Both the position numbers and the translations under genes were made by a program. Source: Candidatus Altimarinota bacterium (GTDB lineage: Bacteria > Patescibacteriota > Gracilibacteria > BD1-5 > UBA2023). Taken from it: DNA of 46,767 bases. Under the pieces are notes generated by a model. The model saw only the letters and a program-made list of their open reading frames with translations. It was not told the origin of the DNA and searched no databases. The DNA lies in the NCBI GenBank assembly GCA_028277205.1, contig JANQGT010000045.1, positions 1 through 46,767 on the forward strand. The letters are read 5' to 3'. Positions 9,890 to 29,294 of the stretch are shown piece by piece; within the stretch, counting starts at the first letter, position 1, and every line of letters begins with the position of its first letter.

Positions 9890-10453
9890 ATGGCGAGCGT
9901 TTCCCGACACCGATCACGAGTGATTGTATTTCAGATGCTGTACGCTCGCGCTCTCTCCGGACAGGAGCGAGACGATGCGCGATTTCTCTCGGCGTTTTTC
10001 GATGCAGAGCAGACATTCGAGCTCGACCGAGACTACATCGACGACATATACTCCGGGGTGCTCTCTCGCGAGTCGGCACTCCTCTGGGCAGTCGCGAAGC
10101 TCGCGCCAAGATTTGACGTACGATCCATGTCTCGGGTCAATCTCATCATCGCCTGCATCGCGCTGCATGAGATGCTCTATCGAGACGCAAATGATATCCC
10201 GGACTCCGTCAGCATCGATCAGGCGGTCGAGCTTGCAAAGCGATTTTCCGACGAGTCGAGTGCCGGATTTCTGAATGGACTTTTACACAGTGCGACCCTG
10301 CAAAAAGACACGCTGCGGGAAAGCGCAGCACATGATGTATCTCTAACGTTTTTATTTCATGACTCAGAAAGCGAAAGCAGCTCGATGGAGTCGCGAGGAA
10401 TTTGAGAGCACGATCACCTCGTATCTCGAATCCCTGGAGATTCCCTATCGTAA
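9890..10453 (+). CDS. nusB: Transcription antitermination factor NusB
   Basis: Starts MASVSRHRSRVIVFQMLYA, the typical NusB N-terminus, and contains the helical core with SRVNLIIACIALHEMLY and SIDQAVELAKRFSDESSAGFLNGLL. NusB acts with NusE (S10) in antitermination of rRNA operons. The first TGA (10403) would give 171 residues; with UGA = Gly it continues 16 codons to TAA at 10451, giving 187. That makes it overlap rnc by 95 bp. The overlap is unusual, and the extra tail may be unconserved. Confidence 0.88.
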
Positions 10454-11117
10454 TCTGTCGCTGTATACGCTCGCATTCGTCCATCGATCAGCGGTCAATG
10501 AGCATCCAGACTGGTTTCCCGAGCATAATGAGCGTCTCGAGTTTCTGGGTGACGCAGTACTGGAGCTCATCATCACCGAGGCGCTTTTTCTGGGCTATCC
10601 CGAGCGACCCGAGTGACAGCTCACGGACATTCGCAGCGCTCTCGTGCGTGGCGCGCACCTGGGACCGATCGCGCAGAGTCTCGACATGTCGGAGCATCTG
10701 CAAATGTCGCGCGGCGAGATCATAGGCGGCGGGAAGAATAATCTCGTCATTCTCGCCGACACCTTCGAGGCGTTTCTCTGAGCGATCTATCTGGATACAG
10801 GCTACGAATCCGCTCGCACATTCGTCATAACGCATGTCTATCCGACCGTCGAAAATGTCATAGAAAACAAGCTCCACATCGACCCGAAATCACACCTCCA
10901 GGAAATCACACAGCGCATATTTAGCGAGACGCCGCGCTATGATCTGCTATCAGAAGCCGGTCTCGATCATGATAAAACCTACACTATCGGCGTGCATGTC
11001 CGTGATTCGCTCATAGGCATCGGGACGGGCGCGAGCAAGAAAAAAGCCCAGCAATCCGCCGCTCAGGCAGCACTGGAGCGAAAACGCGAATGGACGGGAA
11101 AAAAGAAGCGAGCGTAG
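10359..11117 (+). CDS. rnc: Ribonuclease III
   Basis: 252 residues: RNase III domain with NERLEFLGDAVL (catalytic signature) and the second metal site in ADTFEAFLGAIYLD, then a double-stranded RNA-binding domain (PKSHLQEITQRIF ... GASKKKAQQSAAQAAL). It processes rRNA and could also cut crRNA:tracrRNA duplexes of the adjacent CRISPR locus (inference). TGA at 10614 (PE-G-QLTDIRSALV) and 10779 (EAFL-G-AIYL) both replace conserved glycines. Stop is TAG. Confidence 0.95.
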
Positions 11118-11624: not shown

Positions 11625-11646
11625 ATAGTCTTCTCGATGAGCACTT

Positions 11647-12737
11647 TGTCGCGATTGACCGCAGATACAATGACAGTACAATGATAGAAACGATCATCAT
11701 GATAAAGATAACGTTTTCGGTTGACCGCAGATACAATGACAGTACAATCCTCGAAACCTCCGAAGGTTTGCGAGCCTCGTTTTCGGTTGACCGCAGATAC
11801 AATGACAGTACAATGGATGAGATGATACAGCTATATGGTTTTAGTTTTCGGTTGACCGCAGATACAATGACAGTACAATCCCGAGAAAATCCTCCTCGCG
11901 ATAGTAGCCAGTTTTCGGTTGACCGCAGATACAATGACAGTACAATCTGCTCCGGTTCATCTTGCGCATCCATATGGTTTTCGGTTGACCGCAGATACAA
12001 TGACAGTACAATCTCCAAAGGCTTGCTCAAATCCCATGAAGTGTTTTCGGTTGACCGCAGATACAATGACAGTACAATTGTTTCGATATCGGAGGCACGA
12101 AAGGAATTGTTTTCGGTTGACCGCAGATACAATGACAGTACAATAAAACTATATGCAGTGCGTTCGATAGTACGGTTTTCGGTTGACCGCAGATACAATG
12201 ACAGTACAATGTTTCGTTGTGTCTCGTGAAAATCAAGCTTGTTTTCGGTTGACCGCAGATACAATGACAGTACAATAGATGAAAAAGTATAAAATACATT
12301 TGACATGTTTTCGGTTGACCGCAGATACAATGACAGTACAATACCAAAGCGAGGATTATTGAGCGGAAGCTTGTTTTCGGTTGACCGCAGATACAATGAC
12401 AGTACAATTCCCTACTAATCGGTAGGGAGTTAGTATCTGTTTTCGGTTGACCGCAGATACAATGACAGTACAATGCGTGAGGATTTGGATGATCTATCTG
12501 ATGAGTTTTCGGTTGACCGCAGATACAATGACAGTACAATAACAGGCTACTTTGTAATTTACATTTCTTTGTTTTCGGTTGACCGCAGATACAATGACAG
12601 TACAATGCTCGTCATTTTCGATGCGACCCGCTCGGTGTTTTCGGTTGACCGCAGATACAATGACAGTACAATCTATAGACGGAGGTACCGGAGTGGTCTA
12701 TGTTTTCGGTTGACCGCAGATACAATGACAGTACAAT
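11647..12737 (+). CRISPR. CRISPR array, 17 repeats and 16 spacers
   Basis: A 36-bp repeat starts GTTTTCGGTTGACC and ends GACAGTACAAT. Repeats begin at 11647, 11713, 11779, 11844, 11911, 11977, 12043, 12109, 12175, 12241, 12307, 12373, 12439, 12505, 12571, 12637 and 12702. Spacers are 29-31 nt, mostly 30. All repeats are identical except the first, whose 5' eight bases are degenerate. The tracrRNA anti-repeat fixes the crRNA strand as plus. Each repeat contains TTGACC-N16-TACAAT, a complete promoter-like pair. Frames open through the array are repeat artefacts. Confidence 0.98.
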
Positions 12738-12797
12738 CTCTGACGGTCAAAATCGCAAACAGAAAAGGGAAACGAAGGAACGTTTTTTCAAAAAAGA

Positions 12798-12821
12798 ACG
12801 ATCGTAGCGGTCGTTTTTTTC
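12798..12821 (+). terminator. Terminator between the array and cas2
   Basis: ACGATC (12798-12803) pairs with GGTCGT (12809-12814), followed by T7 and preceded by an A run. It lies between the convergent array and cas2 and may act on both strands. Confidence 0.65.
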
Positions 12822-12836
12822 TTTTAGAGAGTTTTT

Positions 12837-13184
12837 CTAAAAAAGCAAGAGTTGATCGGGTGGCTTTTCGGGGCACATCCTACTTCGTCCTACATACGTT
12901 TCTATCATGCCAAATTGCTTATCTGTAAATGTCAGGATTCGGACTTCCCCGTATTCTGGAACACTGTCCCGGACACGTCTTTTGTGTATGCGGCAAACTT
13001 CTTCGGTCGCACAAAATCTCGCATATACCGAGTACTGCATCATATGAAATCCATCCTCAAGAAGTGCTTTTCGAAAGAGTCGATAGCGCTCTTTGTCCTT
13101 TTTAGACTCAGTAGGAAGATCAAACATGGCGACGATCCACATAGCTCGGTAACCGCTGAAAGAAGCAGGAAGATTTATGGACAT
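12837..13184 (-). CDS. cas2: CRISPR-associated endonuclease Cas2
   Basis: 115 residues with the Cas2 ferredoxin-like core: YRAMWIVAMFDLPTESKKDKE (metal-binding Asp in FDLP) and a long FRKALLEDGFHMMQYSVYAR. The family forms the Cas1-Cas2 integration complex that inserts spacers. The ATG at 13184 overlaps the end of cas1 by 10 bp, indicating coupled translation. No TGA codon; stop TAG. It is last in the cas9-cas1-cas2 operon. Confidence 0.95.
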   Translation of the reverse strand: MSINLPASFSGYRAMWIVAMFDLPTESKKDKERYRLFRKALLEDGFHMMQYSVYARFCATEEVCRIHKRRVRDSVPEYGEVRILTFTDKQFGMIETYVGRSRMCPEKPPDQLLLF

Positions 13185-14119
13185 AGATATGCTGGATCGT
13201 ATTCGGGAATGAAGCTGCTACGTATATACCCCGATACGTCCGGGACCGAAAAATCCGCAACATGGGAATATCACGCGCGAAGCGATAAGACATACATGTC
13301 AGCGAGATGTGTCATGTTTTGTGTCATCCCTCGAAATCGGATCTCGTGCGTCAAGACACTCACGAGTTCTCGTTTCATCGGTACTGTCAGTACTTCGCTT
13401 CGAACTCCCGACACAAGCATGCCATAAGCGATTCGATCAACGAGCGGACGAAGAGGCTCTATGAGATCATCCGCAAGATTGAAATAGTTATACCCATTAT
13501 CATGCCAGATCCCGATAGACGGATGAAGTCCTGCAGATACTATGGAGCGAGCTATCAGAGCGCGAATGACGGCATATCCGTAGTTCATCCACGCATTGAT
13601 CCCGAGTGTTTTCGGACCGCGCTCGCGCACGAATTCATCGCCAAGAAGTGCGCGAAAATATTTCGCAGCGGCAATTCACTCGGCATTATCCGTATCACCG
13701 CTACGCACTGAATCGGCGATACCGACAAGTCCGTCATCATCACGCCCGTACAGAGCGAGAACACTCGATTGTGCGAGAATCTTTTCCCGTACGATCAGCG
13801 CCCACAGGCGTTTTTTATTTGGAATCGAGACCGCGAGTTGTTCGGAGAGGTGGTATCCCGAGCGTGCATTTGTGACGATGGGAACAGACAGAGCAGAGGG
13901 CATCCGATCAAAACCGCAGTGCACGACGCAGATGCCTATCTCTCCGCAATATCCCAGCACGGAAGCAGTCAGGGAAGTCTGAGGATGGTCAATGACGATT
14001 GTAGCGACATCTTCGAGCGGAACGACTGTTTCATCACTCTCCTCTCCGCGTATGACGAGCTGTCGACAGCGTACTGAGAGGCATGCCGGTGAGGCGATAT
14101 GGATGATCCGCCTAATCAT
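13175..14119 (-). CDS. cas1: CRISPR-associated integrase Cas1
   Basis: 314 residues beginning MIRRIIHIASPACLSVRCRQ, a typical type II Cas1 start. The C-terminal helical domain shows GINAWMNYGYAVIRALIAR, GLHPSIGIWHDNGYNYFNLA (catalytic His) and DLIEPLRPLVDR (catalytic Glu/Asp). TGA codons at 13676 and 13271 are Gly; the second extends the protein to TAA at 13175. The ATG at 14119 overlaps the cas9 stop by 8 bp, which decides the start over a longer frame further upstream. Cas1 catalyses spacer integration with Cas2. Confidence 0.95.
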
Positions 14120-17100
14120 GTCGTGAATTTTGAATTCTTCCGAGACGATCAACGATGAGGAGTCGAATATCAGCGCTATCGGGCGAGACGGAGCGTTGGT
14201 CTTTTTTGGGTTGGGCGGATAGAGCTTCCGATGAAGACTTGTCGTCATCATTCATAAAATCTTCAGATACTTCCACCTCATCCGGCACCTCACGATTTGC
14301 GCGTCATTTCTTATCGGATCACCGCACCTCTCGATGACCAGCGTACGAAAGCTGGACAGAGTTACCGTTGTTATTCCCCCTGATACTTGTAAGGACGTAT
14401 ACCTTCCCATCTACCTCCATCATATCGCCCGGATGCAGAGAAAATGCGTAGCGATATTCATCAGGAGAATAGTGATGTTTTCCCTGTTGCCATGGTCATA
14501 CACGATCAATGATCGGCGTTTTCTCTCGCTTTCGCGCATACGCTTCGTACATATTCACGATGACGCCGACTCGTTTCGGTCTGCCATTCTTGCGCTTCTT
14601 TGTCCTATGCTCCAGGATTTCGACATGATGATTTGACGCCGAATCGAAATACATCCATTTCCCCGACTGGTGCCGATGCACGGGGATGATATTAAAATGC
14701 TTTATCTTGCGTACGCGCACCGATCGGATAGGCGTCTTGCCATCTTTATGCAGAGGAAATGCATTGACGCCTCATGCAGTTTTTCCTGTCTCGGCAAACA
14801 CGAGGAGGCATTGTCTCACCCAGGGGTCTGCGCAATCTTTGGCGATTGCTTTGAGTTGCGCAGGTTTTTTATCAAGAAGTGATTGTCGTACTGTATAGAT
14901 CGTATCGTCGATCCGGGCATATCCGGTTTCTTCATGGAGAGCGCCGCTTACCTTGTGATTTACGCGGTGTGAAACAATGAGAGTATCAAGTCGCTCTCTC
15001 ATGGCATCGATAAAGGATTTCGAAGGTTTTGCATCGTCTATGGCGGCATCGACACGATTTTGGGATACATTGTATCGAGCGGAGTAATTTGACATGCGCT
15101 GGAGCAGCGATCGAGAAGTGAGAGCTATGATGACCGCATCAATCGCGTGATGTCTGTGATCCTTGCGATTTTTCTCATTGTGTCATTGTTCATTTAGAAA
15201 TGTGTTCCATCCCCAATGATAGCGCAGTTTGCCAGTGAGTCCGCCCTTGGTGATTTGTACTCTGTTTTTCCCGAGTAGCGCTTCTGCAAATTGTTTGATC
15301 TCTCTCGAGATATAGCGAGTATCATTCAGCTGACGCTCGACAAACACGTCTGATTCGAGGACGTCGCGAAAAAACCGCGTTTTCTTTGCGCGGGGCATGT
15401 GAGTCAGATTTCCGACCCGGTTTGCCATGTCCACAAACCAATCATCCCCGAGTGTCGCGCGCAATTCTGCCGGAGCGCGCTCTCGTTTTGTTTCACGATT
15501 AAAGCTTCCAATGCAAAGAGTCTTATTGAGAAACGAATCGTCAAGGCATCGCGAATAGGGAATAATATGCTCTACATCCACATCGCTCGATCTAAACACT
15601 CGTTCAAATGAAAGCTTTGTCCCCGTATATGGACACATCTGCTGACACTCCTGCCAGAGGATATATCGCAATACGGCATCGTCGGTCGAAGACACGCCGC
15701 TTTCTTCGAGAATTTTTTTCGCATCCTCACGCATCTTTTCGCGCTTTTTTTGGTATTCTTCTTTTTTCTTGCGTTCTTTTTCGGCATTCTTCATATCGCG
15801 AGAGAGTTCGATCCGCACGGTATCGGGCTGTCCGTATTTGTCTATGAGCATCCTCAAAACACCTCTCACCTCCGTCACAGCTCGCGTGACGGTAGGATTT
15901 CGAAAGTCTGGAATACATCGCCATAGCTTTTCATTTTCAGTGTGTTCATATCCTGTCTTCTCCGTAAGGCCCGCCATATCAGCACATTCGCGGACGGATT
16001 TTCCTGTCTTTCTCATGTGTATCAGCAGACGCCGGAGAGCCTTTTCCGATACATGGAGATACTTGCCTGGCACGGGAATTCTTGCGAGCTTTCGAGCGAT
16101 CTCTTCATCCATCGCATACTTTCGACTAAAAAGGCGTATCAGAGAATTTTCATGCTCTACTGTTGCCAGGCATTCGATGATTTCGTACGCTTCATGACCG
16201 CACGCTTTTGCATCATCATCGTACTGTCCATGTATCACGGTATCGGAGCCGAGCCATGCATGCAAGAGATCGCGAAAGCGCGGATAGGCATCAACAATCG
16301 CGCAAATAAACTCGCTTCCTTTGAAACTTTTTGTGGACGCTCAGTCTTCTTCGATACCAAAAACATACTCTGACGAGATCCCGAGCAATTTCCGAATTTG
16401 CGAAAATGTCATGGATTTTCGCGTGATGAGCTCATAGAAAAGCGCATTTTTATTTGCTGCATCGAGTGGCAGTAGTTGGCGATTTTCCCTGTGACGCAAT
16501 GTCAGTCCGTTTATACGCCCTCGCAATACGAACTCCTGAGAGAGAAGCGAGTATTTTCAAGCCCGCCTCCTGTCAGCAAAGTAGGTACACGATCCGACTA
16601 AAGCCGATTGTACCTTGAGGGGACGCTGAGAATACAACGCATTTTGAAATGCGCGTTTGAGTGTATCATGAAAAATGTTTGGTTTATATTCGCGCTGTTT
16701 TCCCCAGATTATTTCAAATTCTCGCTCGTGATGATCTATGCGAGATGTCCAGCAAAGCTCGTCACTCACTCGAGAACCAGACTGTATCTCTCTCCATCGG
16801 TATTCACCGAGTGTGCGGCTTCCCTCTTCATTCATGCGCTTCGTCAGAGCGTCGATACCCGCTTTCAGTCATCATGCTTCTTGCCTTTTGGCATTGGTGG
16901 TCTTTTTTTCCGGTGCTGCATCTTCTCGCGTATCAATTTTTCGATTCGACCGAAACCCACGTTTCTTTGCCATGTGGATCATAATCCTCCCAAACTCTTC
17001 GAGTGTGAGCTCACGATCAAGCGCCTCTGCTCGAAGCTGCCAAGGCGACACCATCCGCACCGATTCATTGCCATCCATGTTGTTTTCCCGAACAAGTCGA

Positions 17101-17327
17101 AGCACGGCGAGTTTGCGCATCTTTCTTCTGGATATGAGTCTGCGCATGGATCGTGCACGTCTTCTGTCTTGGCTAAGCGGTCTGCGGTTTTCTGGATCAC
17201 GCGGTTCAGAGAAAATCCGCACTCCCATATCAATAAATACCTCTCTTCCGTCCACGATATCTATGACCGACCATCCACATGAAGCAACCCCGACATCAAA
17301 ACCAAATGTGTATTTTCCTGTTTGCAT
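14112..17327 (-). CDS. cas9: Cas9 RNA-guided endonuclease (type II-C-like), UGA-recoded
   Basis: A 1071-residue Cas9, the compact size of subtype II-C. RuvC-I is YTFGFDVGVASCGWS (Asp11), followed by an arginine-rich bridge helix (RRLISRRKMRK). RuvC-II is VRIELSRD (Glu507). HNH is DVDVEHIIPYSR (His587) with CPYTG before it and Asn610 after. RuvC-III is HHAIDA (Asp730). The rest is the PAM-interacting region. Eight TGA codons are read as Gly (16872, 16557, 16341, 15183, 14772, 14496, 14319, 14304), and the frame closes at TAG. ATG 17336 is an alternative start, three codons upstream. All nuclease residues are present, so the enzyme looks active. Cas4 and Csn2 are absent. Confidence 0.95.
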
Positions 17328-17369
17328 AGTGACCATGGCTTTAGAAAAATAGCAGGGAATACCACAGAC

Positions 17370-17398
17370 ATTGTATAAAAGAAAGCACCATGAAGCAA
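17370..17398 (-). promoter_or_regulatory. Predicted promoter of the cas9-cas1-cas2 operon
   Basis: Minus strand TTGCTT, 17 bp, TACAAT; the -10 box is about 43 bp before the chosen cas9 ATG. The region 17400-17631 beyond it is A/T-rich and holds no convincing gene. Confidence 0.5.
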
Positions 17399-17625
17399 GC
17401 ACGAAAAAAGGTGAGCACACATAAGGTACTATGAGAGCCCGTTTAGTTTTTACTTCAAGTCTTTGTTCTTGTGATTATTACATGTTCATCCAATTTCCTC
17501 GATATATAAAAAAAGAGAAGGTATCTTTTCATGTGATATGTCGGCAGTATATATCCTCGCGACCGCACTCTATGAGTATGAAATAGATAGATACGGACGC
17601 GATAGCGGAGAATACGATTTTGTCT

Positions 17626-18120
17626 TTATACAGAGCAAATGGAGCCACCGACGGGACTTGAACCCGTGACCTCATCCTTACCATTGCCGAATGAGAGGAT
17701 TTTTCCGGCTCATATATCTATTCAGAAAGTCATTTTTTGGATGCAGAGAAGAAAAGGGTGATTCTTTTCTCGAGTCCTCATCCAGAGAAGCATGTATGCT
17801 ATATCATGGAAGTTCAGAATTACAAAACTTTTCACCAGGAAGTCTGATGAAATAGATACATTCCTTCTGGAAGAGGAAATAAAAGCGAATGTGATAAGAA
17901 GTGGCTTTTCTACTTGATAAGTATGTGAGATGAGAAAGAAGCGATTGTTCCCTTTATAAGCATCTCTCACAGGAAGAGTGATGAGTGAGAAATAGTTATA
18001 TTGCGAGTTATGAGTCATCTCGAGCACCAAATTACTATATCCTACGCGGACAGAGGGGGGCATCAAGATGTCCAGGAATACCAAGAACTTCTTCACAGCT
18101 ATATAATCAGTTTCTTGCAT
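17626..18120 (-). CDS. Hypothetical protein, frame running through the tRNA remnant
   Basis: With UGA = Gly this frame is open for 164 codons, from ATG 18120 to TAA 17626. Its last 35 codons translate the tRNA-Thr remnant. The middle (YSNLVLEMTHNSQYNYFSLI, RFFLISHTYQVEKPLL) looks protein-like, but no family is recognised. It overlaps the end of the next frame upstream by 86 bp. The two may be halves of one gene with a frameshift near 18110-18120. Low certainty that it is expressed. Confidence 0.3.
17632..17684 (-). repeat. 53-bp copy of the tRNA-Thr 3' end (putative attachment site)
   Basis: Identical at all 53 positions to 29211-29263, which covers the 3' part of tRNA-Thr from the anticodon loop to CCA plus 8 bp downstream. 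Beyond 17684 the sequence diverges and no tRNA can fold. This is the classical product of site-specific integration into a tRNA 3' end. Confidence 0.85.
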
Positions 18121-18280
18121 CTGGCAAAAGCTGAGTGAGAGGCAGAGGAAGAGTCGGGAGATGATTGTATTTCTCGGGAAATTTTATAGTATGTGGGAAA
18201 TCATATTGAGTCGGATCATGCGCAGCATTCCTCTCATCATCGAAAGTATCAGGGTTGACATAGGAAGAGATACGAGACAT
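18035..18280 (-). CDS. Hypothetical protein fragment
   Basis: An 81-codon frame starts MSRISSYVNPDTFDDERN and reads as a plausible soluble protein as far as PLTQLLPDARN (about 18110). After that the neighbouring frame looks better. This suggests a frameshifted or decayed gene at the left end of the island, divergent from the RhuM-Fic gene. No function can be given. Confidence 0.3.
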
Positions 18281-18364
18281 CAATGAATGATACAGTATAC
18301 GTGTAAAAAAACGTATGACGAAGTAGGATAGAATGAGGGTTTTGTAAGAATATATTTTCCTACT

Positions 18365-19342
18365 ATGATGCATCAACAATATGAACCTGTCATCTATCAG
18401 ACCGCGGATGGAGCTCTAGAGCTTCGGCGTGATATATCTGGGGAAAATATCTGGGCGACACAGGCAGAGATAGGTGAGCTATTCGATGTCGATCAGTCTG
18501 TGGTTTCTCGGCATATTCGAAATATCTTTAAGGACGGAGAGGTAGATGCAAAAAGCAATATGCAAAAAATGCATATTGCTCACTCGGATAAACCAATATC
18601 ACTCTATTCACTCGATGTCATCCTGGCTGTAGGATATCGTGTCAATTCGAGAGTCGCGATACGGTTTCGTCAGTGGGCGACAAACATACTTCGTGCCTAT
18701 ATTATCGACGGGTACACTATCCATCCACATATCCGTGAGCGAAATATCGAAAAATTTCTCTCGGTGATTTCAGAATTTCACGATCTGGTACCGACTCATA
18801 CGCAGATCATCGGTGCGCATGATGTTATCGAGCTCGTTCGTGAATTTTCAAATACCTGGCTTGCGCTCCATGCCTACGATCAAAATGAGTATCCACAATA
18901 CGAGACAAATCGGATATCGGCTCAATTCACAGCATCGGATCTCTCCGCGGCACTGACAACACTCAAACATGCACTTCTCTCACAATGAGAAGCCACAGAA
19001 CTCTTTGGGATAGAGCGTACCGATGGCGCACTCGAAAGCATTGTTGGGAATGTATTTCAATCTGTATTTGGGACAGACGCATATCCAAGCGCAGAAGAAA
19101 AAGCGGTGCACCTCCTCTATTTTATCGTCAAAGATCATCCATTCGTAGATGGAAACAAACGATCAGGCGCCTTCGCATTTGTTTGGTTTCTCGAAAAAGC
19201 TGGTATACTCGATATATTCCGTATCTCTCCAGAGGCACTGACAGCTCTTGCGCTTTTTATCGCCGAGAGTAAGCCATCGGACAAGAATCGTGTCGTGGGG
19301 CTCGTGGTTTCTTTGTTGCATGGAAATAATAATCTTAAGTAG
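18365..19342 (+). CDS. RhuM-like N-terminus fused to a Fic/DOC domain
   Basis: 325 residues. Residues 1-110 match the RhuM/virulence-protein family: a winged-helix-like segment (WATQAEIGELFDVDQSVVSR) and YRVNSRVAIRFRQWAT. The C-terminal half has the Fic core HPFVDGNKRSGAFAFVWFL (HxFxxGNKR), used by Fic enzymes to transfer AMP or other phosphate groups to proteins. One TGA (18986) is read as Gly and joins the two halves. It ends 18 bp before hsdR, so they probably share an operon; Fic and RhuM genes are common companions of type I R-M loci. The target is unknown. Confidence 0.85.
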
Positions 19343-19360
19343 TTAATTAAAAACAAGATT

Positions 19361-21874
19361 ATGTCACAAAAGGAATCCCAGGCTCGCATCAAAATCAATA
19401 AACTCCTTGAAGAGGCGGGCTGGCGTTTTTTCGATTCTGAAGCAGGTGCGGCAAATATCACACTGGAAAATAATGTCAAGATCAGCAAGCACGATGTCGA
19501 TTCACTCGGTGAAAACTATGAGAAGACTCTGAACGGCTTTATCGACTTTTTACTGCTGGATGATCGAGGTTTTCCGTTCGTTGTCCTTGAGGCAAAGAAG
19601 GAAGATAAAGACCCTCTCGATGGCAAGGAGCAAGCTCGTCGCTACGCCCAATCGCAAAATACACGCTTCGTCATTCTCTCAAACGGCAATCTACATTATT
19701 TTTGGGATTTAGAGCGTGGAAATCCAGAAGTGATTATTGAGCTTCCAACACAGGAGTCATTGAAGCATCACCAGACATTCAAGCCTGATAATAAGCGTCT
19801 TGCTGCTGAAGAAGTGAAAGACAACTACATTGTTCTCACGCAAAATCCTAAGTACAAGGAAGATCCGCGCTACCAAAACGAGGGAGAGCGAAAACAGTAC
19901 TTCTACGATGAGGGATTGCGCATACTCCGTCCTTACCAGCTTCGTGCTATTCATGCCCTCCAAAAGGCGGCTGAAGATGGCAAGGATCGTTTTCTCTTTG
20001 AAATGGCAACGGGAACCGGAAAAACACTTGTCTCCGCTGCCGTTATCAAGCTCTTTTTACGCACGGGAAATGCAAAGCGCATTCTGTTTCTTGTTGATCG
20101 CTTGGAACTTGAGGATCAGGCTCGGAAAAACTTCGTTCGTTATCTCAAAAATGACTATACCTGTGTCATCTACAAACAGAATCGAGATGATTGGAGAAGG
20201 GCAGAAATTATAGTGACAACAGTACAAAGTCTTGCCTCACAGGATAAGTACAAAAAACTCTTCTCTCCGACCGATTTTGATCTTATCATTGCGGACGAGT
20301 CCCATCGTGCCATTGGAGGAAATAGCCGTGCGGTATTTGAATTTTTCGTAGGCTACAAATTAGGACTTACGGCTACTCCGAAAAATTATCTCAAGAATCT
20401 CGATCCTCAAAGAGTTTCACAAAAAGACCCGCGGGCGTGGGAACGACGCCAGCTTCTCGATACCTATAAGACATTCGGATGCGAAGGTGGAGAGCCGACC
20501 TATCGATACAACCTGCTCGATGGCGTAAAAGACGGATTTCTGATCAATCCGATCGTTACCGACGCTCGTACGGATATCACGACTGATCTTCTTTCTGACA
20601 AAGGCTATGCGGTGATGGTGGAGGATGAAAATGGAAAAGAAGAGGAGCAAATGTTTTTCCATAAAGATTTTGAAAAGAAATTTTTCTCCGAAAAAACGAA
20701 CAAGGTCTTCTGTAAAACATTTCTCGAAACTGCTCTCAAAGACCCGATCAGTGGAGAAATCGGAAAGTCTGTCGTATTTTGTGTGAGTCAAGCACATGCC
20801 TCCAAAGCTACACAAATGCTCAACCAGATGGCGTCCCAACTCTGGCAAGATAAATACAACTCAGACTTTGCCGTTCAAGTTACTTCAAACATTGCGGACG
20901 CTCAGCAATTCACTATCAATTTTGCGAATAATAATCTCAACGGTCATACGCACTGGCTTCCCGGCTACAAGTCGAGCAAGACTCGCGTTTGTGTAACTGT
21001 AGGGATGATGACGACGGGATACGACTGCCAAGACATCCTCAATGTCGTTTTGATGCGTCCGATCTTCTCCCCGACTGACTTTATTCAGATCAAAGGACGT
21101 GGTACGCGCAAACATATTTTCGATTATGAAGATGAGTATGGAGAAGTCTATCGTCACGAGAAAGAAAAATTCAAACTCATTGATTTCTTCGCAAACTGCG
21201 AATACTTTGAGGAAAAGTTTGACTACGATGAGGTGCTCAAGCTCCCGCAGATCGCCAATAGTGGCACTGGAAAAGGAGGGGACATGAGTATTGATATTGA
21301 CTCGATCAGTATCCTCGATCCTGATCAAATCAAAACCATGCAGGAGAATGCCGTCGATCTCGATGGCATGAAGATTGACCGAAAGCTTTTTGAGAAAGCG
21401 AAGGAAGAAATCAGTCAGGATACTGAGATTCGGGAAGCGGTGGAAAATGAGCAGTGGGATCGCGCCATTGCCAAACTTCGTGAGAAATACGAGGACAAGC
21501 CGCAACTGTATATCAATCTCGATAAGCTCAGGAAGTCGGAAAACCTCGATCGTCGTCTCTCATGGCGCGAGTTTCTCGAGCGGATTTTCGGTCATATCAA
21601 GGCATTCAAAGCAAAGGACGAAAAACTCGAAGAAGAATGCGAAAAATTTCTTGCCATTCACAAGCCTGAGAGTAGATATGTACCGCACATTAAAAACTTT
21701 TTGAAAGCCTATGTCACAGATGAAAAATTTCGAGAAATCATTAATAATAAGCATTTTTCTGACCTCAACTTCTATCCTGCATTTAGTTTGGAAGAATACC
21801 GAGAACTTAATGGATGGAGAGAGACTATCCCCGAATACATAAAAGACTATGTCCCTGTAAATTCGTATATGTAA
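19361..21874 (+). CDS. hsdR: Type I restriction enzyme, endonuclease/translocase subunit HsdR
   Basis: 837 residues. The N-terminal PD-(D/E)xK nuclease appears as GFIDFLLLDDRG ... VVLEAKKED (residues about 56-80). The SF2 translocase motor has MATGTGKT near 212-219, ADESHRAIGG near 310, LTATP, TTGYDCQDIL and KGRGTRK. It moves DNA past the bound complex and cuts it at a distance. The gene has not one in-frame TGA in 837 codons, unlike cas9, the HsdS half and the helicase in the same region. hsdM follows after 13 bp. Confidence 0.95.
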   Translation: MSQKESQARIKINKLLEEAGWRFFDSEAGAANITLENNVKISKHDVDSLGENYEKTLNGFIDFLLLDDRGFPFVVLEAKKEDKDPLDGKEQARRYAQSQNTRFVILSNGNLHYFWDLERGNPEVIIELPTQESLKHHQTFKPDNKRLAAEEVKDNYIVLTQNPKYKEDPRYQNEGERKQYFYDEGLRILRPYQLRAIHALQKAAEDGKDRFLFEMATGTGKTLVSAAVIKLFLRTGNAKRILFLVDRLELEDQARKNFVRYLKNDYTCVIYKQNRDDWRRAEIIVTTVQSLASQDKYKKLFSPTDFDLIIADESHRAIGGNSRAVFEFFVGYKLGLTATPKNYLKNLDPQRVSQKDPRAWERRQLLDTYKTFGCEGGEPTYRYNLLDGVKDGFLINPIVTDARTDITTDLLSDKGYAVMVEDENGKEEEQMFFHKDFEKKFFSEKTNKVFCKTFLETALKDPISGEIGKSVVFCVSQAHASKATQMLNQMASQLWQDKYNSDFAVQVTSNIADAQQFTINFANNNLNGHTHWLPGYKSSKTRVCVTVGMMTTGYDCQDILNVVLMRPIFSPTDFIQIKGRGTRKHIFDYEDEYGEVYRHEKEKFKLIDFFANCEYFEEKFDYDEVLKLPQIANSGTGKGGDMSIDIDSISILDPDQIKTMQENAVDLDGMKIDRKLFEKAKEEISQDTEIREAVENEQWDRAIAKLREKYEDKPQLYINLDKLRKSENLDRRLSWREFLERIFGHIKAFKAKDEKLEEECEKFLAIHKPESRYVPHIKNFLKAYVTDEKFREIINNKHFSDLNFYPAFSLEEYRELNGWRETIPEYIKDYVPVNSYM

Positions 21875-21887
21875 TTTCCTATACCCT

Positions 21888-24470
21888 ATGCTCAACCAAG
21901 AAATCAAGCATCGTATCGATGCCGCTCGACAAATCCTCGTCGGGAAAATACCTGATCCCAAAGCACAGGTTGAGCAAATCACCACCGCGATGATTTATAA
22001 ATTCATGGACGATATGGATCGAGATGCTGAGGAGCTTGGCGGAGAGGCGCGGTATTTTGTGGATGACCTCAAGGAGTTTTCTTGGGGACGATTGCTCTCC
22101 AAGGAGCTCTCGGGACAGGAAAGGCTGGATACATACATAAGAGCTATAGTTGCGCTTTCTAAATCACAGCAAATTCCAGGGCTCTTCCGAACCATTTTTA
22201 AAGACGCATTCCTCCCGTATCGCGACCCGGAAACGCTCAATCTTTTCTTGAAGGAGATCAATGGGTTTACCTATGAAAATAGCGAAAACATAGGAAACGC
22301 TTTTGAATACCTGCTCTCTGTGCTCGGAAGCCAAGGAGATGCGGGACAGTTTCGCACACCACGCCATATCATCGATTTCATCGTCGAGGTCATCGCTCCG
22401 AAAAAAGGTGAAACTATTCTTGATCCCGCCTGCGGTACTGCTGGATTCTTGATTTCTGCGTACAAGCACATCAAGCGAATTTACTCCTCAAACTTTATTG
22501 AGGAAGAATATGTGCCCACGTTTGCAGAAACTGATAATCGTGACATCACAACGGTGGAGATTCAGAAAAACGGAAAATACAAAGCAGACAGGCTAACTCT
22601 CGATGACAAGAAGAAGCTTGCACAAAATATCGTTGGCTACGACATTTCGCCTGACATGGTGCGCTTGAGTCTTGTGAATCTCTATCTGCACGATTTCAAT
22701 AGCCCGCAGATCTTTGAATACGATACTCTCACCTACGAAGATCGATGGGATGATGATTTCGATGTTATCCTCGCCAATCCTCCCTTTATGACACCGACGG
22801 GTGGGATCCGTCCGCACGAACGATTTCAAGTACAGGCGAAACGTTCGGAAGTCCTCTTCGTCGACTACATTGCCGAGCACCTCTCGATCAATGGACGCGC
22901 GGGCATCATCGTACCGGAGGGGATCATATTTCAGTCTGCGAACGCCTATAAAAATCTCCGAAAGATGCTGGTAGAGAACGATCTCCTCTGGGCAGTCGTC
23001 AGCCTTCCCAGCGGCGTATTCAATCCCTACTCCGGCGTCAAGACCTCTATCCTGCTCCTCGACAAACAACTCGCCAAAGAAACGGACAAAGTGCTTTTCG
23101 TAAAAATTGAAAACGATGGATTTGATCTTGGAGCACAACGTCGTCGCATCCAAAAAAACGATCTGCCCGCCGCCTACACCTGCCTCCAGCACTATCAAGC
23201 ACACCAGTCGCTAGAAAGATTTGCAGAGAGGACTATCGGCGCGCACACTGTATCGCCCGATGACATCGCCCGTATCGCCCATACCGTGCCACGAGAGCGC
23301 ATCGCCGAGAGTGGTGAATACAATCTGAGCGGGGAGCGGTACCGCACCCGCGAGACGGTCGCGAATGGGAAGTGGGAGATGGTGGAGTTGGGAGAGGTGT
23401 GTGAGATATTAAATGGTTATGCATTTGATGCTGGTAAATTCAATCATGATTGAATTGGCATGCCTATCGTAAGAATACGCGATATAAATTCATGATTTTC
23501 CAACACTTATTATAATGGAAACTATGAAGAAAAGTATTTGATTCATGATGGAGACTTATTGATATGAATGGATTGAGACTTTAGGATAAAAATTTGGAAA
23601 CATGGTCCCGCCTTGTTGAATCAACGAGTCTGTAAGTTACATTCATTTGAGAATGTAATACAATCCTTTGTTTCGCTCTTTATTCAAAAAGAATTAGACA
23701 AGATTCATTCGGAAACTTTTGCAGTAACAGTAAAGCATTTATCATCTCGACAGATTTCGAAAATCAAAATCCCCCTCCCACCCCTCGCTGTCCAGGAGCA
23801 GATCGTCACCGAGATTGACGGATACCAGCGAGTCATTGATGGAGCTCGACAGGTAGTAGAGAGCTGGAAACCAAGCATTAAAATCGATCCTGAGTGGGAG
23901 ATGGTGGAGTTAGGGGATAGAGTTAACTTCCAAAACTGATTTGCTTTTGAGAGCCAAAAATATATAAAACAAGGTTATCAAATTATTCGTATAACAAATG
24001 TGCAGAAAGGATATATAGATAATAAAAATCAAAAATTTTATCCTGAGAATGAATTGAAATGATTAGAAAATTTTATACTCCAATCTGGAGATTTATTAAT
24101 GTCACTAACAGGCAATGTATGAAGAGTGGGGGTACTTCAAAAAGAGCAACTACCTGCGGTGTTGAACCAACGAGTCGCAAAATTAGAGATTAAAAATCAA
24201 CAGTTATTAGATAAGAAATACCTCTTTCATATTCTCAATACTGATTCTTTTGAGAAAGATGCAATTGATCTCGCAAGTGGTATTGCCCAGAAGAATCTAT
24301 GAACAACAGCTTTAAAGAAGTATAAAATCCCCCTCCCACCCCTCGCTGTCCAGGAGCAGATCGTCGCCGAGATCGAGGCGGAACGTCAGTCCGTGGAGGC
24401 GTGTCGTGATCTCATCGCTCGCTATGAGGCACGCATCCGCGACCGAATTGCGGAGGTGTGGGGAGGCTAA
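21888..24470 (+). CDS. hsdMS: Fused type I methyltransferase-specificity protein HsdM-HsdS
   Basis: With UGA = Gly one frame of 860 residues joins both subunits. Residues 1-490 are HsdM, with ILDPACGTAGFLISAYKH near 178 (SAM binding) and ILANPPF near 293 (adenine N6-methylation). From about 495 follow two target-recognition domains. Each starts at KWEMVELGEVCEIL or EWEMVELGDRV and ends at IKIPLPPLAVQEQI, the HsdS conserved region. Eight TGA codons lie in the HsdS part (first at 23451) and none in the HsdM part. TGNV-G-RVG and LLI-G-MD-G-DFR match common HsdS motifs. The first TGA lies inside TRD1, so a UGA-stop reading would cut HsdS, not separate the subunits. Stop is TAA. Confidence 0.9.
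23766..24365 (+). repeat. 42-bp exact direct repeats at the ends of the two HsdS target-recognition domains
   Basis: 23766-23807 and 24324-24365 are identical and encode the conserved KIPLPPLAVQEQIV segment. An 18-bp repeat (23372-23389 and 23894-23911) marks the start of each domain. The domains between them are A/T-rich. These repeats could support recombination that shuffles specificity. Confidence 0.85.
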
Positions 24471-24766
24471 ATACATCCTGTATTGTATAAGATAGGAATA
24501 TGGACTCCCACTTTCAGATCCATCAATTCTTCCCGAGTCGCATTGCCGACACTATCATGCGGGAGTACCCCTGGCATCATCAGTGTCATATGGAGCAGTG
24601 CGAAAATGCTCAGCGCTATGCGAGCGCGTACACACATATGCACTTGCTGTACATGACTTTCATCTACATTTATCCGATCACCTGTTATGCCTTTCGTCGA
24701 TGATATGCGACGTATCTCTTTCGCTCGAGGATACGACTCGAGTAGATCTCGAAGTATCTCGGGCAT
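24467..24766 (-). CDS. Possible small hypothetical membrane protein
   Basis: A 99-codon minus-strand frame starting MPEILRDLLESYPRAKEIRR, with a hydrophobic stretch IALSIFALLHMTLMMPGVLP. It ends in TAG overlapping the hsdMS stop. A longer start at 24895 is possible. No family is recognised. The 440-bp gap between hsdMS and the helicase otherwise holds no gene, and plus-strand frames here look no better. Confidence 0.3.
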   Translation of the reverse strand: MPEILRDLLESYPRAKEIRRISSTKGITGDRINVDESHVQQVHMCVRARIALSIFALLHMTLMMPGVLPHDSVGNATREELMDLKVGVHIPILYNTGCI

Positions 24767-24909
24767 ACACACACTGCCACGACGATGTGATATATCCAGG
24801 GTATATCGGAGGTGAATGGGGAGGCTATGAGGGTGATAGAGGAGAGGATGAGAGGCATCCAAAGAAATGATTATGTTGTCAGGACGCACAACCAACGAAC
24901 AATTGCCCG

Positions 24910-27900
24910 TTAGATCTCTGTTTTACAATCATCAATGTCACGACACAATTGGTCTAATATCGTATTTCTATTATCAAACCAATCCTCGCTCCAGACACGA
25001 ATAATCTTCCATCACTTACTTTCCAAAATCTCCTGTCTCCAGATATCATTATGTCGCGCCCTCCATCAGCTGTGATAGGTTTTGCCATCACACTCGATTC
25101 AGCATAAATAGACAAAATCCGATTGATTGCTCTTGATTCATAAATCGATACGAAATCCACTCTCGGCAATTTGGTACTCTACGATATATCATCGTTCTTT
25201 GAGCGAATTCGCAACATCTTCCTCGAATGGCGAATCGGGTCAATGTTCGCATTGTGATGGACCCTCTCTATTGTACAATCCTCTCAAAATATTTCGAGCT
25301 GTTTGCGTCTCTCATGCGGAAACACTGCGCGCGTATTTGAGAAACGCTGCCAGAAAATATCGCTCTTTATCATTATCACGCTCGTTTTCATTGGCAACAT
25401 GCTCTGGACTCAACGATGAAACTAAGATCAGTGCTTCGCGCGCCCGAGTAATGGCAACATTGAGAAATCTCCTTCATTTCTCGGAAATGTTGACCTCTCC
25501 ATACCTTCTTTGTCCACGATCATCATAAATGGTGCTCATGATAATAATATCTCGCTCATCACCTTGGATATTTCGAACATTGCGGATGATGAGCGGATCT
25601 TTTCCTCATGGATCGCGAATACGCTCGATAAAATTACAAAATTTTTCGTTCTCCTTCATACGCTCGTCGATTTGATCTTCAATCATATCTTTTTGCTTTT
25701 TATTCAATGTCAGGATGCCGATACTTGGACACTCGGATGGCGAGAGAGGCAAAAAATGTGTTTCGAGAATGGAGAGAATTTTTTCAATTTCACCAATGTT
25801 CGTGCTGTCAGCACATGGACTGTCAACCCGACAAACCGTTATCGGAGCCGTCAAAAGTTTTTGGAGATGGGGATTGATAGGAGTGTTCGTAGGAGGAACA
25901 AATAATTTTCCATCGTAAAAAGCATGATTTGAGAAATCAATCAATTCTCGATGGTGCGATCGATAGTGCACCTGAAGCATTTGTGAATTTTGTGATCCAG
26001 TCATGACCGCTTTATCTCCAGCCTCCACCAGCGATTCCCCTCCTTCTATTGCCCTGTATTCTTTATCTTCTTCCTGTCCACCATATTCTTCGGATTCTTG
26101 CTGCATAAATCCTGTATATGGAGGCATTTGCATACGATCTCCCACGATGACTGTTCGTTTCGCCCGGTAGAGGAGCGGCGCCGCCTCGTCAGCAAAAAGC
26201 TGGGATGCCTCGTCAAAAATAATAATGTCTACACACTCGCTCTCCAAAGGCAATAATGCTGCTGCGCCGGTTGTCGTCGTGATCAAGATCGGATAGAGGC
26301 TAAACATTTCCTCTCGTCATTTACGGTAAAGCTCTCGCAATTCCGTGCGCTTTCGTCTTTTACTTTCCCGTATTGCCAGACATTTTTTTCGCTTCAAATC
26401 GTCTTGTGGTCAAAGGCGTTGAGTATAATGCGAACCAATCGCTTTCTTCACGAGTTCAAGTTTTTGCCCCATTTGCTTTTTCAATTGTTCCCTCTCTTTC
26501 TGAAATTCCTTTGGATTGCGAAACACACAGCGTTCATGCTGACGCTCTAGGGCATCGCGCCATTTTTCATATACGGCAAATTGGATCATGACACTCCAGA
26601 GTTTCGGGCAATCGCTCCACTCTTCGCACAATATACGACATACTTCGTTTTTCTGTATCCTCCTTTGTATTTCGGCAATATCCTTAATATTTTCCAATTG
26701 CTCTTTGAGAGCTGGGAGGCGATCAAAAAATACAATAAACTCGTCTGCATACGAAACAGTACTAGTCTCTTTTGAGAGAATTTCAAACAATTGACTCATT
26801 TCATCAAACACGGCATGAAAATTGCCATGGACAAGTCACACAAGACGAATATCCCGAAAGGCGAAAAGGGGGTGCTGCTGGTATTGCCGAATACATTCGG
26901 TCGTGTTTTGACTTTGCTGCCAAAGATTTTCGAGCGCATCTGTGATTTTGCGTCTGTCAGATCGTTGAAGATCTGCCGAAATGGCATAATACCTCCAGGG
27001 ATTTTCGTGATAACGACAATCAATATATTGCTTTTGAAATTCCTCTATCAACTCGAATAACGAATGGGCATCTGATCGATTTTTACAGTCGGATATTACG
27101 TCGAGATTCGCGATCTTTTGCTGTTGCGGATCGAGTTCTCGCTTGAGTATTTCCGCCTTCGCATAGATATTCCGGTATACGAGGGGGATATGGCGGTATC
27201 GCGGATCCGTGCCATCGTCATCCGGATCAATAGCCGCATACAGAAAAGAAATATGCGCATCCAGTTTGCTTTCTCGTGTTTCAATCTCGCTACTGATTTC
27301 TTCGAAAGATTTTTGAGAAAAGGGGATCGTAGGATCACGATCTATATCCTGTATGCTCTTCAAAACGCTTTTGCGAGATTTGTAAATATCCGGAATATAG
27401 GCAATGTAGTCTCCCAATCCGTCCTGTCAAAGACGATCAACGAGGATTTTCAAAGCAGCCGGCTGTTCTGAAACGATCAATACTTTCTGTCGGTTTTTGA
27501 TTGCATCTGCAGCGATATTGATAATGGTTTGCGTTTTTCCCGTGCCGGGAGGTCACTGAATGCAAAGCACTTCACTAGTACGACTCTGCCATATGGATTG
27601 CATTTGTGTTGGATCGGCATCTCTCACGATATATCTTTCCTTTTCTCCCGGAGCGGGAACGGCAGCATCCTCAGGTTTATTGTCTCATAAAAAGTAGCGC
27701 AGCACGCTTTCATTTATTGTATCGCTTCTGCTTGCGAGGCGTTTGAGATCATGAAAGATCTCGCGTTTGTGAAATGTATTTTTTCACAAAAAAACACCCG
27801 AAAACATGGTTGCATCTTGAGGGTTTTGATCAAATCTCTCATCGCTTTGACGTTCATCGTTCGCGAAAGTAATTCAGGGAATGTCGGCGAGCTTTTTCTC

Positions 27901-28599
27901 TGCGAGTGCAACAATCTCATCGTATGAATTTCAAATATCTTTCTCGTCATCCGCATCCTCATCGCCAATGGAGAGAGTGTATTCCTGGGAGAGATATGCT
28001 TCTAATATGGGATTCAAAAATCACACGGATACCGTATCCGGATTGGCGTCATCCCTGAATGTTGGAAACATTTCTCAAAAGTCGGCACCGACTCTCTGGA
28101 GATGAATAATATTATGATTGTTGTCCACTTTCACCACGACTTCCCACAAAAATACGGGAGACATCGCATACTTTTGATCTCATTTTTTTGGAAGCATGAC
28201 CATTGGAAAACCGATCGTCAAAGACAAAAATCCCCGGGAATAGAAAATCTCACGCCCATCTTTTTGAAGGTTTGTTATCTTTTTTCTTACGGATTCAAAT
28301 GTGTTTTTTGGAGAAGATTCCAAAAGTCCGACCGATTCTCAGACGAGAAATTTTTTGAAGAACGATGGTTTTGAAAAAACGAGATTTGCCTCATTGTATA
28401 CGCTCTCCTGTACTCGATTTTGATCGAGAGAGGTATTCGAGGCAAGTGCCTCACCGACCATATATGCCCCGATATCCACCGTGGAAGCTCTTGCACCCCG
28501 GGGATTCCAGCTCAAAAGCGGATTTCTCGAAAGAGAACGCAAAAGAAATGATTTATACAGCTCTTGAAGGACTGATTGATGCCCATTTTGACTATCCAT
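24910..28599 (-). CDS. Large SF1 helicase with C-terminal Vsr/DUF559-like nuclease domain
   Basis: This 1229-residue gene is hidden by at least 22 in-frame TGA codons. Residues 1-340 form an N-terminal region resembling those of DUF4011-type helicases. Walker A is GPPGTGKTQT at 349-358, its first Gly encoded by TGA. FDEASQ (near 795), VGDRMQMPP, VHYRSHHRELIDF, IQGDERDIIIMS (near 1010) and FLNVAITRARE are SF1 helicase motifs of the COG1112 group. Residues about 1165-1225 carry GIECDGKTYHSG ... DIWRQEILES ... IIRVWSEDWF, a Vsr/DUF559-type nuclease fold. Helicase-Vsr proteins occur in defence islands (known); the antiviral role here is inferred. The start overlaps the stop of the upstream gene by 8 bp. 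Confidence 0.88.
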
Positions 28600-28957
28600 A
28601 ATTTCCGAAGATAGCGAAAATCATCAACATAGCGATAATTGTTGTCGCTACCACAAGTCCAATAAGCATTGAGAAGATCATTTTATTTTGTTTTCGTATT
28701 TCACCGATCACCGTCTCGTGGGCATTGCTAAAACTTTGCATTCCTGTTTTGAGTTGCGATATATTCGTTTCTGCGTCTTTTGATACTTGTACGAGATGGT
28801 TTCTTATCTCTTCAAAGGATTGCGTAAAAGTTGTTTTTATTTCGCGTATTTCACCGGTCGTCGCTTCGTGGACGTGACTCATCTGATCAATCTGCGTCAA
28901 AAGCACGTATAAAACTGCAGGAAATGCGTCAAACTCATTTCCATCATTATGAGTCAT
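28592..28957 (-). CDS. Small coiled-coil protein with C-terminal membrane anchor
   Basis: 121 residues. Residues 15-90 are helical heptad-like segments with repeated EIR motifs (TTGEIREIKTTF, VIGEIRKQNK), as in signalling coiled coils. Residues 94-117 are a membrane span (MIFSMLIGLVVATTIIAMLMIF). The stop overlaps the helicase start (ATGGATAG), so the two are translationally coupled and probably work together. No TGA codon; stop TAG. The coiled coil would face the cytoplasm if the C-terminus crosses outward. Not assigned to a family. Confidence 0.75.
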   Translation of the reverse strand: MTHNDGNEFDAFPAVLYVLLTQIDQMSHVHEATTGEIREIKTTFTQSFEEIRNHLVQVSKDAETNISQLKTGMQSFSNAHETVIGEIRKQNKMIFSMLIGLVVATTIIAMLMIFAIFGNYG

Positions 28958-29057
28958 TTTCTCGTAGGATTCTTTAAATTGTCAAAGAATTCACTGAATC
29001 CATTCCGAAGCTGAGGCATTTGAAGGCATATATGCGGAAAGTGCTATGCTCACATTA

Positions 29058-29085
29058 AGTATACGAGAAAGCGTGTGAAATTCAA
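29058..29085 (-). promoter_or_regulatory. Predicted promoter of the coiled-coil/helicase operon
   Basis: Minus strand TTGAAT, 16 bp, TATACT, about 100 bp upstream of the first ATG at 28957. This leaves a 5' leader in which no clear structure was seen. Confidence 0.45.
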
Positions 29086-29218
29086 AATACAAAATCACCA
29101 TGTTTCTCTCTAATTCAACGGATGCCTCTCAATCGAATCCATCATCATTTTCGTACTGCACGAGAGGGAGGTCGTTATGGTCGTGAGAAAGTGTGGTTTT
29201 CGGGTATTAGAGAGCAAA

Positions 29219-29294
29219 TGGAGCCACCGACGGGACTTGAACCCGTGACCTCATCCTTACCATGGATGCGCTCTACCGGCTGAGCTACGGTGGC
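29219..29294 (-). tRNA. tRNA-Thr (anticodon GGU)
   Basis: A full cloverleaf on the minus strand: acceptor GCCACCG/CGGTGGC, D arm GCTC/GAGC, anticodon stem CATCC/GGATG with loop ATGGTAA (anticodon GGT in DNA), T arm ACGGG-TTCAAGT-CCCGT, and an encoded CCA. Its 3' 45 bp plus 8 bp downstream are repeated exactly at 17632-17684, and in decayed form at 11201. It therefore appears to be an integration target. Confidence 0.97.

Follow-up and report, generated by a model that had tools for sequence, protein, structure and literature searches.

Genes and features of the locus

The window analysed here is a stretch of 46,767 nucleotides (contig JANQGT010000045.1) from a Candidatus Altimarinota bacterium, a CPR organism that uses genetic code 25, in which TGA is read as glycine. 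Near its middle, a long helicase-nuclease gene and a small gene directly upstream of it lie on the reverse strand, with the following features:

24910..28599, reverse strand: 1229-aa SF1 helicase (read with code 25) ending in an MTES_1575 (Vsr-type) nuclease
27529..27555, reverse strand: Walker A motif GPPGTGKTQ, residues 349-357 (GPPGTGK invariant in 7 aligned sequences)
25414..26550, reverse strand: AAA_11/AAA_12 helicase lobes (Pfam and alignment)
24937..25227, reverse strand: MTES_1575 REase domain, residues 1125-1221 (Pfam; model pLDDT 87.6; Vsr-type fold in the model)
28592..28957, reverse strand: 121-aa amphipathic helical protein, tail-anchored by a C-terminal TM helix; the open frame continues upstream as far as 29161
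29058..29085, reverse strand: TTGAAT-16-TATACT, resembling a promoter and lying upstream of the small gene (such sites no more numerous than in shuffles)

The 1229-residue SF1 helicase proposed in the sequence-only reading is a real and correctly placed frame. It contains 22 in-frame TGA codons read as Gly, a search of the organism's own genome recovers the identical frame, and the protein matches Pfam AAA_11, AAA_12 and MTES_1575, each well above its cut-off. Beyond the Walker A motif, the helicase lobes carry DEASQ (residues 796-800), GDRMQMP (820-826), QGDERD (1012-1017) and NVAITRAR (1047-1054), and SF1 motifs I, II, III, V and VI are intact, the GPPGTGK, DEASQ, GD..Q, QGDE and NV...RA columns being invariant in the 7-sequence alignment. 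The N-terminal 385 residues were modelled with a pLDDT of 69 and have no convincing PDB match outside the helicase core. Pfam searches of the full protein found no match to DUF4011 or DUF3320, and likewise no HEPN, transglutaminase or DUF3320 wHTH domain.

The C-terminal nuclease domain

The C-terminal domain had been described as Vsr/DUF559-like, and MTES_1575 is a more fitting name for it than DUF559: the domain scores 101.5 bits against MTES_1575 (PF18741; curated cut-off 38.2), covering profile positions 1-95 of 96 with an E-value of 2.7e-29, whereas DUF559 reaches only 1e-4. The possibility that the domain might lack PD-(D/E)xK or Vsr catalytic residues, raised beforehand as an outcome that would count against the proposed system, did not materialise, as E1126, D1152, E1169 and D1171 are all present. 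The two aspartates are also widely kept among homologues, with D1152 found in 98 of 99 sequences and D1171 in 95 of 99. The C-terminal 140 residues were modelled with AlphaFold (pLDDT 87.6) and the model was compared with known structures. A second-look structural alignment gave Z 12.6 with the catalytic domain of I-Bth0305I and Z 11.2 with Vsr (1cw0; rmsd 2.6 over 101 aligned residues); Foldseek alone returned I-Bth0305I at an E-value of about 2e-3 and Vsr at 0.09. As judged from this predicted structure, the domain is a Vsr-type PD-(D/E)xK fold with a complete set of catalytic residues. Fusions of this domain family to SF1 helicases are already on record: Anantharaman et al. (2013, PMC3710099) classed the domain as a Vsr-family REase.

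Relationship to known helicase-nuclease families

In PADLOC, the best match of the 1229-aa protein is PDC-S37, a single-gene candidate whose profile is listed without a curated cut-off (E 1e-139, 465.7 bits). The match falls in 2 stretches, the better of which aligns residues 618-1227 to positions 761-1343 of the 1550-position profile. The next PADLOC match is Hhe, at 3e-78. Among NCBIfam models, ProA (NF058533) is matched at 2.5e-129 and 433 bits, against a curated cut-off of 1500, and Hhe (NF042953) at 381.7 bits, against a curated full-length cut-off of 2000. As both curated cut-offs are far from reached, the protein is kin to these families and not a member of either equivalog. With PDC-S37, of which the papers searched make no mention, it shares the helicase plus MTES_1575 architecture; however, it is 1229 aa long against the 1550 positions of the profile, sits on an isolated branch, and has an extra small upstream gene. 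With Hhe (HheA; PDLC02194, NF042953) and ProA, it shares C-terminal helicase lobes and a nuclease that align over about 480-600 residues, although those profiles are 1797-1911 positions long and the DUF4011 and DUF3320 matches are missing here. Similarly, the giant MTES_1575 proteins (PMC3710099) combine an SF1 helicase with a Vsr REase of the same family, but the window protein is without their HEPN, transglutaminase and wHTH domains.

The distribution of the helicase family is patchy. Homologues were found in 12 of 352 other genomes of the class and in 17 of 379 genomes of a phylum sample, and a species-level scan (one genome each for about 85,000 species) yielded 80 loci spread over numerous phyla of bacteria and archaea, with identities of about 25-35% for the best. 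A tree of 114 sequences places the window protein on a long branch of its own, close to the base of the main group and lacking any near sister. This branch measures 1.52 changes per site, making the exact position of the protein unsure and suggesting that its function may have shifted. The helicase is thus a divergent member of a known, widespread anti-virus helicase-nuclease family.

Other branches of the family have upstream genes of their own that are conserved. For example, one six-member clade (L079, L095, L101, L103, L110 and L124) always has a gene for an M48/SprT-like metallopeptidase of about 400 aa directly upstream, overlapping the helicase start or lying within a few bases of it. 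In four Bacteroidota loci (L112, L118, L119 and L125), the upstream protein is about 300 aa long, with a TM helix at its N terminus and three HHH_3 motifs.

A defence island at tRNA-Thr(GGT)

The helicase gene lies within a segment that is bounded by copies of a tRNA 3' end and that carries further genes on the opposite strand:

17629..17684: displaced duplicate of the tRNA-Thr 3' end, matching at 55 of 56 nt (distal island border)
18365..19342, forward strand: RhuM-Fic protein (PADLOC PDC-S23), island cargo (Pfam, PADLOC)
19361..21874, forward strand: HsdR, type I restriction subunit, island cargo (Pfam, PADLOC)
21888..24470, forward strand: HsdM-HsdS fusion with two target-recognition domains, island cargo (Pfam, PADLOC)
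24671..24911, forward strand: remnant of the C-terminal part of a tyrosine recombinase, containing an in-frame TAG (24671-24799 matches PF00589)
29208..29263: repeat copy lying within the 3' half of the intact tRNA-Thr and extending just beyond it (island end)
29219..29294, reverse strand: tRNA-Thr(GGT), the integration target

The two copies form a 56-nt direct repeat with one mismatch (17629-17684 against 29208-29263), and the latter copy consists of the last 45 nt of tRNA-Thr(GGT) and a further 11 nt. A tRNA 3'-end direct repeat at both borders is a signature of site-specific integration at a tRNA; here the segment adjoins the intact tRNA on its 3' side and has the displaced 3' end at its far border. 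The stretch from 17629 to 29263 is an 11.6-kb integrative defence island at tRNA-Thr(GGT), whose cargo, besides the RhuM-Fic and type I restriction-modification genes, comprises the helicase and the small gene. The earlier placing of the helicase-Vsr protein among defence-island proteins is borne out on both counts, as it belongs to a defence family (PDC-S37, with ProA and Hhe as kin) and lies inside a genuine defence island.

No intact integrase was found in the island, only the C-terminal PF00589 relic, which sits between the HsdM-HsdS gene and the helicase and was also detected in a genome-wide PF00589 search. Further integrase parts were looked for at the left end of the island, and none were found. 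The relic contains TGA-glycine codons. A 196-aa integrase from the island of a related genome (G010) was compared with the relic and gave no significant match.

Within the HsdS half of the HsdM-HsdS fusion, a direct repeat (23766-23818 and 24324-24376) coincides with the ends of both target-recognition domains, and it is possibly a site of domain shuffling. Just outside the island lies a type II CRISPR locus (11639-17420), comprising 17 repeats spaced 66 nt apart (11639-12738), a Cas1 frame at 13175-14410, and Cas9 at 14112-17420; a gene for RNase III is present at 10359-11117.

The island and the distribution of the family also bear on a different reading, in which the helicase would be a DNA-repair or recombination enzyme that has come to lie in the island incidentally. 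Vsr itself is a mismatch-repair nuclease, and the core of the helicase has relatives among IGHMBP2/UPF1-like SF1 helicases. However, homologues of the protein are patchily distributed, family members are catalogued as anti-phage proteins, and the gene is placed within a tRNA-bounded island alongside type I restriction-modification, all of which render a repair role very improbable.

The same tRNA site in related genomes

A pattern search for two copies of the tRNA-Thr 3' end identified 3 of 27 genomes of the family, namely those of the window, G010, and G020, and a control with the reversed pattern gave zero matches. The G010 copies, identical over at least 115 nt, are separated by about 6.6 kb that includes an intact tyrosine recombinase. 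In G020, the spacing is 23 kb, and the copies enclose two tyrosine recombinases, a full type I restriction-modification system, a PemK/MazF-like toxin, and an AAA_13 protein. The islands of these three genomes differ from one another, with type I restriction-modification cargo in 2 of 3. A fourth genome (G017) has a homologue of the RhuM-Fic protein, 53% identical (L220, 2754-3878), 78 bp from tRNA-Thr(GGT), at the site that the island occupies in the window. Finally, SecY lies 5-7 kb from tRNA-Thr in G010, G017, and G007, as it does in the window, indicating that the right flank is one of conserved synteny.

The window island resembles tRNA-integrated defence islands in general through its 3'-tRNA direct repeats, its tyrosine recombinase (here a relic), and its restriction-modification cargo. 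It departs from them in residing in a code-25 CPR bacterium and in that the repeats of the window, G010, and G020 islands, from three genera, start at the same base of the tRNA-Thr(GGT) anticodon loop.

The small upstream gene and its relation to the helicase

The small gene and the helicase are on the same strand, and the 8-bp overlap reported between them is indeed present (ATGGATAG). The small frame (28592-28957) encodes 121 aa with no in-frame TGA. Its codon score is 0.104 bits per codon, compared with 0.135 +/- 0.096 for real frames of equal length and -0.24 +/- 0.09 for wrong frames, placing it about 3.9 sd above the latter. The last 30 residues of the protein contain one predicted TM helix (Kyte-Doolittle 2.76), residues 16-92 display significant helical amphipathic periodicity, and the frame contains an internal repeat whose copies are 150 nt apart, a spacing that preserves the frame. 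The earlier description of a 121-residue membrane coiled coil thus stands with respect to a coding-like frame, an amphipathic helical body, and a C-terminal TM helix, but its length requires revision: the frame is open upstream to a GTG at 29161 (189 aa), possible starts lie at 29161, 29101, and 28957, and the codon score of the extension is intermediate and ambiguous, so the start is uncertain and 121 residues are a minimum. Promoter-like sites near the gene are no commoner than in shuffled sequences.

An alternative is that the small ORF is not a gene, or that it is a short leader acting only in translational coupling. Homologues of its product were not found, the start codon is uncertain, and a random frame would stay open this long here with a chance of about 1% per frame, which makes length alone weak evidence for a gene. 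On the other hand, the codon score, the combination of a TM helix with an amphipathic pattern, and the frame-keeping repeat all argue for coding, and this alternative appears improbable. The small ORF is probably a genuine gene, which would be translated and co-expressed with the helicase. The C-terminal tail would probably anchor its product to the inner membrane, leaving the helical part on the cytoplasmic side.

Whether the small protein is a dedicated partner of the helicase, as was proposed, is a separate question. The small gene proved not to be conserved beside helicase homologues, as far as this is testable, an outcome set beforehand as counting against the pair: a comparable small tail-anchored gene lies upstream in 0 of 87 homologues with readable upstream DNA, and a match to the small protein occurs beside the helicase gene in 0 of 12 helicase-bearing classmates. 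No convincing homologue of the small protein was found in 353 genomes of the class (288 for the 121-aa form), nor in plasmids, phages, and viral contigs, and searches of PDB, Pfam, NCBIfam, PHROGs, and PADLOC gave only weak matches of a coiled-coil kind. Small upstream ORFs with hydrophobic stretches were inspected at nine loci (L057, L068, L087, L101, L114, L156, L157, L162 and L183); none resembles the window protein, and most are apparent chance frames or have the wrong topology. The candidate at L183 (G170), an 83-aa frame that has a hydrophobic stretch and overlaps a helicase start, was rejected: the helicase there belongs to a different lineage and is truncated at the contig end, and the small frame also overlaps a RhuM-like gene.

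A two-gene membrane system is accordingly not supported, and the suggested activation of the nuclease-helicase by a membrane sensor has as its basis just the 8-bp overlap and the TM helix of one genome. As no helicase more than about 40% identical was found, a partner may nevertheless be confined to the immediate lineage. In a true two-component system, the tail-anchored coiled-coil protein would recruit the helicase-nuclease to the membrane, or restrain it until a phage perturbs the membrane. The overlap on a shared strand suggests translational coupling and so favours some functional link, and the coding-like frame and the pairing of TM and amphipathic helices are in keeping with such a role. 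Furthermore, the HHH_3 protein retained by another subclade in the 4 Bacteroidota loci indicates that membrane partners can occur in this helicase family. Against this stand the failure to find a convincing homologue anywhere searched, the result for the 87 loci, and the differing share of TGA among Gly codons, 0 of 7 in the small gene against 22 of 62 in the helicase, a difference that is not significant alone. Overall, such a system is unlikely, and it would be rather speculative to extend it to a lineage-specific two-gene module, in which the tail-anchored protein would tether or gate the helicase-Vsr nuclease at the membrane, on a mobile island restricted to TGA-glycine bacteria. The small gene is most reasonably regarded as an accessory or passenger specific to this lineage, and not as a proven component.

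In-frame TGA codons

TGA accounts for 22 of 62 Gly codons in the helicase (35%), compared with 36 of 465 (8%) in the other main genes of the window (Fisher p 2e-8). This excess hints at an origin in, or a long passage through, a lineage or element with heavier use of TGA-glycine. With 22 TGA codons, the helicase is unreadable in standard-code hosts, and in its present form it must have spread via code-25 organisms or elements. Prophages of TGA-glycine bacteria have been reported to carry dense in-frame TGA (PMC10746230), and, by analogy, a link between these prophages and the helicase gene may be envisaged. A helicase homologue from a genome of the same order (L023, G051:C48, 232-3873) has zero TGA in 1214 codons and lies on a 3.9-kb contig; it is either a recent import or contamination.

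Proposed function and significance

Taken together, the helicase is likely to be cargo of an 11.6-kb tRNA-Thr(GGT) defence island that has no functional integrase, most probably acting alone against invading DNA. The island would have entered at tRNA-Thr(GGT) and later lost its integrase. The SF1 motor may load onto invading DNA and travel along it, and the fused Vsr-type nuclease would cut that DNA, while the small protein may tether or regulate the helicase, or be a passenger. The domains, the catalytic residues, the island borders, and the missing conservation of the small gene are computed results, whereas we infer the protein's DNA target, trigger, nuclease activity, and anti-phage function. 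The concept of a translocating nuclease working as a single protein draws on the domains it contains, its intact catalytic residues, the patchy occurrence of its homologues, and its place in the island.

Helicase-nuclease defence families were already known, and what is new here is a delimited tRNA island and a divergent member of the family within it. The initial guess of a defence function is now anchored in a defined mobile island, and the membrane partner is downgraded to a lineage-specific possibility. More broadly, tRNA-Thr(GGT) emerges as a shared insertion site within a code-25 CPR family, and how defence genes cross a genetic-code boundary becomes a testable question.
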